Below, one piece after another: positions 42,334-44,246 of a stretch of 60,190 bases of DNA (position 1 is the stretch's first letter; each line of letters begins with the position of its first letter). The notes beneath the pieces are model-generated. The model was given only the letters and a program-made list of their open reading frames with translations. It was not told where the DNA came from and searched no databases. Made by a program: the position numbers and the translations under genes. This DNA is from an uncultured Lachnospiraceae bacterium. GTDB taxonomy: Bacteria; Bacillota; Clostridia; Lachnospirales; Lachnospiraceae. Location: the NCBI GenBank assembly GCA_902775555.1, contig CACYMQ010000012.1, forward strand, positions 1 to 60,190. The letters run 5' to 3'.

Positions 42334-42744
42334 TCAACGATAAACCGGGATCATAAGATTTGCACCTGCCGTGATATGATCACCTTTCAACTGATTGATG
42401 GAACGTACCTCCGTAATAAACTCTCTCGGATCGGCATAACGCTTTCCGTACTCTTCCGCCAGCGTCCAAAGACTGTCACCGTCTTTAATCTCGATGCTGG
42501 TATAATACTTCTGCTTAATGGTGGATGCCTCAACCTCCGGGGTCTTGGAATTCTGTCCGAAGAAAAGAATGGCGACTCCTATTGCGATCAGAAGAATGCC
42601 GACGATGATGGCTGAGATCCTGCTTCTGTCATATCTGACACTTCCTGCTCTTTTGCTTCTTTTCTCTTGATCATAGCCATCATATCTGTCATAACCATCA
42701 TAACTGTTATATTCATCATAGCCATTATATACATGTTCGTACAT
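42334..42744 (-). CDS. YneA-like membrane LysM protein under SOS-type control
   Basis: A 136-residue protein: a Tyr/Asp-rich cytoplasmic N-terminus (about residues 6-27, repeating YDGYD), a basic stretch, one membrane helix (about 43-60), and a C-terminal LysM domain (about 80-133, IEIKDGDSLWTLAEEYGK). Membrane helix plus LysM under LexA control is the layout of YneA, the Bacillus SOS cell-division inhibitor. I start at ATG 42744, which has AGAGGTGA upstream; the longer frame begins upstream of the -10 box. Its own promoter and terminator make it a single-gene unit. Confidence 0.8.
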   Translation of the reverse strand: MYEHVYNGYDEYNSYDGYDRYDGYDQEKRSKRAGSVRYDRSRISAIIVGILLIAIGVAILFFGQNSKTPEVEASTIKQKYYTSIEIKDGDSLWTLAEEYGKRYADPREFITEVRSINQLKGDHITAGANLMIPVYR

Positions 42745-42758
42745 ATCATCACCTCTTA

Positions 42759-42817
42759 AAAACATACGTTCGGTTTCGCTGTGATATAAATATAGCAAAC
42801 AACCGTTCGAATGTCAA
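42759..42817 (-). promoter_or_regulatory. LexA-controlled promoter with two SOS boxes
   Basis: On the - strand TTGACA (42812-42817) and TATATT (42789-42794) are 17 bp apart. A LexA box CGAAC-N4-GTTTG (42796-42809) fills the spacer, and a second box CGAAC-N4-GTTTT (42759-42772) lies just before the ribosome site. Both match the Gram-positive CGAAC-N4-GTTCG pattern with one or two changes in the right half. Confidence 0.85.
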
Positions 42818-42839: not shown

Positions 42840-44228
42840 TCAGTTAGCTACAATGACCTGTGCAGTCCGGAGTACTTTCCCCTGATACATATAGCCGGCC
42901 TGCATGACCTGCTTCACTGTATTCTCGGGAAGATCTCCGTCCGCAACATGTGCAACCGCATTCTGCAGATTAAAATCAAACGGTCTGCCTTCCCCCGTGA
43001 TCCTGGTAACACCGTTTTGTTCGAGGATCTCCACGGCCTTCTCATAGGATTGCAGGATCCCCTTTGCATATGGATTGGACTGGTCCTCCGCGTATTTGGC
43101 GGCGTATTCCAGATTGTCGATGATGGGCAGGATATTTGTGATGAATCCGCCGAGATCCTCTTCCCGGGAGGCCGGAGCAGCGCTGTCCTCCGAGAGATCG
43201 ACCGTGAATGTAAGTTCCTCACCGGAACCGGTCTTCAGTAACAGTTCGATCGTTCCTTTGCCAAGCCCTTTGATAAGTGCGGATATTTCCTTCCTTCGGA
43301 GCGACCCCGTCTCTTCTTCTCCGGGATACAGCAAAGTTACGGGGATCAGTTTCCTCTTTCTCTCTTCATAGATCGTGATCCGGTCTCCTTCGGATCCGGG
43401 ATCCGTAAACCGGAATCCGGGGGTCCTGCAGGTTTTCCCCTGAAGCAGGGGGCCCTCTGTTCCGACGATCTCCTTATTCACTGAGATATACAGGGGATAT
43501 GGAGTTATTTCATCTTCGAGGATGGTCATACCGGCCACTGCCCGGTTCTCCAGGATCCCGCAGAAGTATCCGAGACCTTCGATGATACAGGCTTCGTCCA
43601 GCATCTTGATCTCAATCCCGCTTTTCCCCAGCGCCTTGGATGCGGCCTGTTCAAATGTCATGCATGCATTGAAGCTTCCTGTAAAAAAGACGGCATCCGC
43701 ATCCTGCAGGAACAGCAGCTGCGGTCCCTTCTTCTGCAGGAAAGCCAGAACGGACATACCCTCTGTCTGCTCGGTGACCAGCACGGTCTTAAGACGCTTC
43801 ACCGCAGTACCCATTTCATAGACGGCAATGCCGGTTCGTTCATCTGTGGCAAATGCAGACAGGATCGTGACTCCGTCCTCTACCCGGAATTCCTGATTGA
43901 CATAGAGTGCCAGAGCGGCGGATTCATGACAGGTCCCTACAAGGTTCACTTCACAGGACTTAGCTCTTTTCCTGAGTTCTTTTTCCTCGGTGAGACCGTA
44001 ATCATCCGGTATGGCAAGCACCACATCAAAATCACTGATCTCCATATTCTCCTGCATATGGGAACGGATCTTTTCGAAGGCCAGACGAAAGGCCCTGTCA
44101 TCCTTCAGTACATCCGTGTTTCGGATCGACATGGGAAGTTCCATGGTATCCGTATAGATATTATAGTCATCACAGATACAGATCCGGGCATTATGCTCCC
44201 GGAAATGTACGCCTACTGTATTCTTCAT
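42840..44228 (-). CDS. Fusion of degenerate Hsp70-like domain and GrpE domain
   Basis: A 462-residue protein. Residues about 1-215 resemble the Hsp70/actin nucleotide domain: a DnaK-like block (LVGTCHESAALALYV at 96-110 against INEPTAAALAYG) and a GSFNACM segment. The first phosphate loop (VGVHFREHNARIC) lacks the usual DLGTT, so ATP hydrolysis is doubtful. Residues about 240-345 may be a reduced substrate-binding part. Residues about 358-462 match GrpE: ILPIIDNLEYAA, ILEQNGVTRI, GRPFDFNLQNAVAHV, PENTVKQVMQAGYMYQGKVLRTAQVIVA. The gene is 18 bp after nadE, with GGGGAGG before the ATG. Confidence 0.75.
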   Translation of the reverse strand: MKNTVGVHFREHNARICICDDYNIYTDTMELPMSIRNTDVLKDDRAFRLAFEKIRSHMQENMEISDFDVVLAIPDDYGLTEEKELRKRAKSCEVNLVGTCHESAALALYVNQEFRVEDGVTILSAFATDERTGIAVYEMGTAVKRLKTVLVTEQTEGMSVLAFLQKKGPQLLFLQDADAVFFTGSFNACMTFEQAASKALGKSGIEIKMLDEACIIEGLGYFCGILENRAVAGMTILEDEITPYPLYISVNKEIVGTEGPLLQGKTCRTPGFRFTDPGSEGDRITIYEERKRKLIPVTLLYPGEEETGSLRRKEISALIKGLGKGTIELLLKTGSGEELTFTVDLSEDSAAPASREEDLGGFITNILPIIDNLEYAAKYAEDQSNPYAKGILQSYEKAVEILEQNGVTRITGEGRPFDFNLQNAVAHVADGDLPENTVKQVMQAGYMYQGKVLRTAQVIVAN

Positions 44229-44246
44229 TGTGCCTCCCCGGATATT

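Follow-up and report, generated by a model that had tools for sequence, protein, structure and literature searches.

Ssz1 of the yeast ribosome-associated complex is an atypical, eukaryotic Hsp70 that consists of a nucleotide-binding domain (NBD) and a lidless substrate-binding beta-sandwich (SBD-beta), has a J-protein partner and carries no GrpE. According to the available excerpts of PMC12305717, GrpE is the ubiquitous exchange factor of bacteria and Hsp110, itself an Hsp70 relative, is its eukaryotic replacement; the accessible part of PMC12987570 describes promotion of ADP release by Hsp110 through an NBD–NBD interface. Hsp70 and GrpE are also deployed jointly in dedicated loci, the GAP1-N2 GTPase conflict loci, a subset of which has a second Hsp70 without the peptide-binding domain (PMC7159879, in excerpt). 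Here we describe a protein in which an Hsp70-derived part and a GrpE body are joined in one chain. The parts are known, and the joined protein was not found: a search of the open-access literature returned no such Hsp70–GrpE fusion and no role for one, in keeping with the initial annotation of this DNA, and a 2025 review of GrpE-like factors uses neither 'fusion' nor 'fused' in its main text.

The fusion gene lies in a stretch of 60,190 nucleotides from an uncultured Lachnospiraceae bacterium (contig CACYMQ010000012.1; hereafter the window). An open frame of 462 codons runs on the minus strand from 44228 down to 42840 and encodes 462 amino acids (protein P0001; CDS 42840..44228, stop included), and the plus strand at 42840–44228 is interrupted by stops. 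The initial annotation had read this protein as a 462-residue Hsp70 relative fused to GrpE, an observation that our analysis confirmed, with the frame on the minus strand. Four parts were delimited, all on the minus strand: residues 1–233 (43530..44228, boundary approximate), the actin-fold core of an Hsp70 NBD; residues 234–345 (43194..43529, boundaries likewise approximate), an Hsp70 SBD-beta; residues 346–356 (43161..43193), a short linker at the place where Hsp70 goes on into its lid, set by the family alignment and the limits of the flanking domains; and residues 357–462 (42843..43160), a GrpE body of short helices and beta-wing. There are 36 full-length homologues of 461–515 amino acids.

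The Pfam HSP70 profile (PF00012) matched neither P0001 nor any of the 21 fusion members scanned, and a profile of the N-terminal part retrieved no Hsp70 from the PDB sequences, so the Hsp70 reading rests on the family profile, a paralogue and fold comparison. When the profile built from 37 N-terminal parts was run over 893 stop-to-stop frames, the first match beyond its own members was a GrpE-fused paralogue (L088, E 8e-38), followed by a pseudo-Hsp70 (L089, E 1.5e-9) and then by Hsp70s (E 9e-4 to 0.027), with no unrelated frame among the 40 matches listed. Both L088 (25.0 bits) and L089 (29.6 bits) exceed the PF00012 cut-off of 20.6 bits. Fold searches with the predicted models retrieved Hsp70: residues ~1–230 of the model superposed on Hsp70 NBDs with Z to 14.3 and on actins with Z to 13.4, and the comparison of residues ~234–345 recovered the SBD-beta of Hsp70. 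Mean pLDDT by block was 70–90 for residues 1–100 and mostly below 50 for 111–210; a second structure model left the NBD part not folded, and the GrpE region was of low confidence in whole-chain prediction. Taken to the letter, the refuting criterion set in the initial annotation (a lack of profile matches to Hsp70 within residues 1–345) speaks against the relation at the level of Pfam; the more sensitive family profile, L088/L089 and the fold searches reveal it. Together, the family profile, the Pfam-passing paralogue L088 and the folds of models of modest quality confirm a reading of the N-terminal part as a degenerate Hsp70 comprising an NBD core and an SBD-beta.

What this degenerate Hsp70 has lost is consistent across the family. 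The sequences LGTT and GGGT occur in 0/37 members and the letters DLG in 2/37, and H8 stands in all 37 where the IDLGTT of Hsp70 has Asp; the degenerate first phosphate loop noted earlier is therefore borne out, and by their motifs the ATP phosphate loops (IDLGTT, DLGGGT) are lost in 37/37 members. Binding of ATP in the usual mode is not expected from such a sequence. H8, D75 and E102 are among the invariant residues still present, E102 corresponding in position to the Glu of NEPTAAA, and the old nucleotide cleft may take another ligand. In a profile alignment with the DnaK of the same genome, in which domain scores were weak, two stretches had no counterpart: ~45 residues ahead of the 'VxAVPDD' strand and ~83 residues between model positions 147 and 178. 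By position we take these gaps to be subdomains IB and IIB. The structure model shows no IB or IIB elements, and the pseudo-NBD apparently lacks both. The SBD-alpha helical lid is absent as well: the final SBD strand ends at 344, GrpE begins at 357, and the GrpE body stands in place of the lid. By its ATP loops and lid the fusion is not an Hsp70; it is a GrpE that has diverged and lacks the long helix. The initial annotation had suggested a regulator or a self-contained client-holding module. The protein may hold clients; self-containment, understood as an Hsp70 that has its exchange factor in cis, has the presence of both domain types on one chain in its favour. Such an arrangement is highly improbable and disfavoured by sequence, as the ATP loops are absent and the subdomains that GrpE wedges apart in DnaK (PMC10803776, in excerpt) are apparently missing; the GrpE part, too, is without its long helix. 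With IB and IIB apparently missing from the fusion's own NBD, any Hsp70 on which the GrpE part acts would have to be a different one.

The C-terminal part had been taken for GrpE, and judged by sequence this is unambiguous. Residues 357–461 match Pfam GrpE (PF01025) with E 3.8e-27 and 95.4 bits against a cut-off of 25.8, the match covers profile positions 58–164 of 165, and 21 of 21 fusion members scanned have it. Profile positions 1–57, the long-helix region, are unmatched, and the pseudo-Hsp70 occupies that place. Solved GrpE structures were also matched (4ani, E 9.7e-11; E. coli 1dkg, E 3.3e-9), and residues 362–462 are 43% identical to the stand-alone GrpE of the same genome. The fusion misses the NCBIfam equivalog cut-off (best 66.5 bits versus 176); 26 models were matched, and it reaches the cut-off of none of the 25 shown. 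Within the body, the wing residues M442, G445, Y446, K451, R454 and V460 are invariant in 37/37. Tyr is found at position 375 in all 37 fusions, where at least 90% of stand-alone GrpEs (21 of the genus and 29 others) have Arg, and position 455 is T, P or A, where at least 90% of the 21 genus stand-alone GrpEs have His; by these two positions, the interface or the partner of the GrpE part may have changed. Such partial rebuilding of the interface region would fit a GrpE body that now merely dimerises the pseudo-Hsp70 and binds no Hsp70. We consider this quite improbable, as few stretches of the protein are as well conserved as the wing, through which GrpE touches the Hsp70 NBD and which a mere dimeriser could do without. 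As side observations, one homologue (L067:2723-4270, in G314) carries a ~50-residue Gly/Ser/Thr-rich insert between the short helices of its GrpE part, and in another genome an EPSP-synthase-like frame, recognised by eye, ends in 25 residues of GrpE wing (L094:344-1585, in G335), a joining that represents either a rare domain fusion or an assembly error of a draft contig.

The N-terminal part was found in 37 of the 61 genomes of the window's Lachnospiraceae genus, including 20 of the 31 with at least 90% completeness and at most 5% contamination, and a GrpE body ends all 37 proteins (36 fetched plus that of the window). Of 397 genomes sampled from the family, the remaining 396 gave no match to it (G160 among them belongs to the genus), and of 392 from the order, the remaining 391 gave no full-length one; the fusion family was thus found confined to one genus within the genomes sampled. 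Over 666 pairs, median identity was 33% (minimum 22) for the N-terminal part and 68% (minimum 50) for the GrpE part; within the same 21 genomes, fusion GrpE had a median of 68% versus 75% for stand-alone GrpE. In the nine closest of the 15 pairs listed, six of which are drawn from four near relatives (L081, L083, L085 and L086), dN/dS was 0.03–0.07 for the N-terminal part and 0.00–0.08 for the GrpE part. The N-terminal maximum among the 15 was 0.27, in pairs with dS near 1.5, and the sole listed pair with the window protein (P0001–L056) gave 0.27 and 0.04 for the two parts. These ratios indicate that purifying selection maintains both halves while the N-terminal part diverges faster. They also bear on whether the protein is a decaying relic or an assembly artefact: the degenerate motifs and the draft state of most sampled genomes would suit such an origin, which is contradicted by the low N-terminal dN/dS of the nine closest pairs and by the same architecture in 37/37 matching genomes, including the single-contig G302 and G304, and is left with a negligible probability.

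Related genes were seen beside the main family. Two genomes without a main-type match encode proteins of 685 amino acids (L090:714-2768, in G334) and 674 amino acids (L091:2437-4458, in G309), each with a more divergent pseudo-Hsp70-like N-terminal part, a long acidic Glu-rich linker and a C-terminal GrpE. G304 has three pseudo-Hsp70 genes: the main fusion, a further GrpE fusion whose wing motif has decayed (L088) and a gene that lacks GrpE (L089). The three possibly form a series from Hsp70 to fusion.

The fusion is additional to the normal GrpE and lies outside the dnaK operon, as first supposed. The window genome has a separate grpE–dnaK locus between hrcA- and dnaJ-like frames (those two recognised by eye), and a perfect CIRCE precedes hrcA. 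Among the 20 good-quality fusion genomes, a full stand-alone GrpE frame is present in 18, a fragment in G335 and none in G352; for all 37 the figures are 23 with a full frame, two with a partial one (G344, G335) and 12, of 58–91% completeness, with none. One draft genome, G348, holds two stand-alone GrpE frames of 225 and 247 amino acids (on C186 and C195), which may come from contamination (7%). Besides DnaK, the window genome encodes two Hsp70s of 565–566 amino acids (L007:1498-3189 and L008:1380-3077) with ATP motifs present and a C-terminal end shorter than that of DnaK; each directly adjoins a TPR-protein-like gene (by eye). The GrpE body might serve such a short Hsp70 rather than DnaK, and genus relatives do have Hsp70s similar to these paralogues. 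In a FastTree tree of 101 GrpE columns, moreover, one split sets 40 fusion domains (the 37 plus L088, L090 and L091) opposite 50 stand-alone GrpEs, with support of 0.974 or 0.782 depending on rooting, a short alignment and a long branch, and the fusion domains have their own invariant residues. We regard service to another Hsp70 as improbable, however; a frame for such a short Hsp70, interrupted by one stop, also appears in G349, a genome with no detected fusion that is only 73% complete.

In the window, the genes named beside the fusion gene are nadE, a LysM gene and recU. nadE lies upstream and ends 18 bp away, and this gap contains a ribosome-binding-site-like GGGGAGG (44233..44239, minus strand), which suggests that the two genes are co-transcribed. 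Downstream follows the LysM gene (Pfam match; 42334–42798), with an SOS-box-like site, CGAACGGTTGTTTG, in front of it at 42796–42809 on the minus strand; 0.12 such sites would be expected by chance, and 8 of 100 shuffles contain one. We presume this gene to be a YneA-type SOS division inhibitor, and the position between nadE and an SOS gene given initially holds in this form. An arrangement with nadE, LysM and miaB is seen in 5 of the 40 loci examined, the others having different neighbours. Immediately upstream of the fusion gene, three genomes (L061, L065, L080) carry an Hsp33-like gene, recognised by eye, in the opposite orientation.

How such a protein might work can be approached from GrpE itself. 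As described in the available excerpts of PMC10803776, the wing and short helices of GrpE in the M. tuberculosis complex contact DnaK IB and IIB, and the long helix contacts IA/IIA and the SBD; GrpE with a mutated long-helix patch (Mut-1) supports no viability, whereas wing and short-helix patch mutants do, and the Mut-1 residues are needed for DnaK affinity, their mutation abolishing support of refolding. In E. coli, GrpE tails visit the substrate site of DnaK (PMC12915176, in excerpt). We tentatively suggest, at a confidence somewhat short of even, that the fusion is an auxiliary Hsp70 cochaperone, the GrpE body of which docks on an Hsp70 while its lidless SBD-beta meets the client. The GrpE body would pair through its short-helix bundle, and the beta-wing would dock on an ordinary Hsp70, in the simplest case DnaK, at its NBD. 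Because the long helix and tail of normal GrpE reach the DnaK SBD in these excerpted accounts, their replacement would put the pseudo-Hsp70 there, with the lidless SBD-beta beside DnaK's client, which it could bind, hold or hand over without ATP, offering a second, ATP-free client site next to DnaK's own. The conserved GrpE body with its wing invariants in 37/37, the low dN/dS of both halves in the closest pairs, the SBD-beta fold kept in the models, the missing ATP motifs, the apparent loss of IB and IIB and the retained stand-alone grpE argue for such a cochaperone. Against it, Y375 in place of Arg hints at a changed interface, and the divergence of the N-terminal part (median 33%) may point to one specific partner and not to client binding in general; with the long helix and its Mut-1 residues missing, docking on DnaK may also be weak or altered, going by the M. 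tuberculosis excerpts.

A rival reading is a DnaK-targeting or DnaK-restraining adaptor. Its GrpE body would bind DnaK but fall short of full exchange, and its pseudo-Hsp70 would be a protein–protein module that guides DnaK towards one specific partner or competes with normal GrpE. In the excerpts of PMC10803776, mutating the helix that the fusion has lost abolishes both support of refolding and viability; the N-terminal part diverges fast (33% versus 68% median identity) yet has low dN/dS in close pairs, fitting a partner-specific module, and the window contains no CIRCE site. We nevertheless judge an adaptor rather unlikely, as the retained SBD-beta goes beyond what an adaptor needs and no neighbouring gene that could be the partner is common to the whole family in the 40 loci examined.

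The fusion can be set beside several described systems. It shares with GrpE the body of short helices and beta-wing and differs in lacking the N-terminal tail and long helix, in being joined to an Hsp70 remnant and in lying outside the dnaK locus; from Hsp70/DnaK it differs by the missing phosphate loops and lid, apparently also IB and IIB, and by going unrecognised by Pfam. The excerpts of PMC7159879 describe Hsp70 and GrpE of the GAP1-N2 loci as genes that stand with GTPases, and around the window gene nothing of this kind was recognised. Eukaryotic Hsp110/Sse1 is, like the fusion, an Hsp70-derived protein carrying exchange-factor machinery, and its structure 2qxl was among the fold matches; the exchange part of the fusion would, however, be its fused GrpE and not an ATP-binding NBD, since the ATP loops are absent. 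In principle, by analogy, its logic would be that of Hsp110, an Hsp70-derived holdase plus an exchange factor, built from other parts. Hsp110 is thus nearest in logic, and lidless atypical Hsp70s such as Ssz1, of which 7x3k and 6sr6 were among the fold matches of the fusion models, are nearest in shape. It is possible, if doubtful, that the fusion is a bacterial Hsp110 counterpart: an Hsp70 stripped of ATP binding, of the lid and of the subdomains that exchange factors engage, and given a GrpE body, that would dock on DnaK as exchange factor and offer the released client an ATP-free peptide-binding domain, the SBD replacing the tail-and-helix release device of GrpE.

Overall, the observation of a pseudo-Hsp70 fused to GrpE was confirmed, and the interpretation first given to it was partly supported. 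If our reading is true, a conserved bacterial protein that unites an Hsp70-derived part with an exchange factor, using different pieces, would be a case of convergent evolution, and the coupling of exchange and client release would become testable, because the stretch of GrpE implicated in client release is here swapped for a substrate-binding domain. The protein also shows that purifying selection can preserve an Hsp70 remnant devoid of nucleotide loops.
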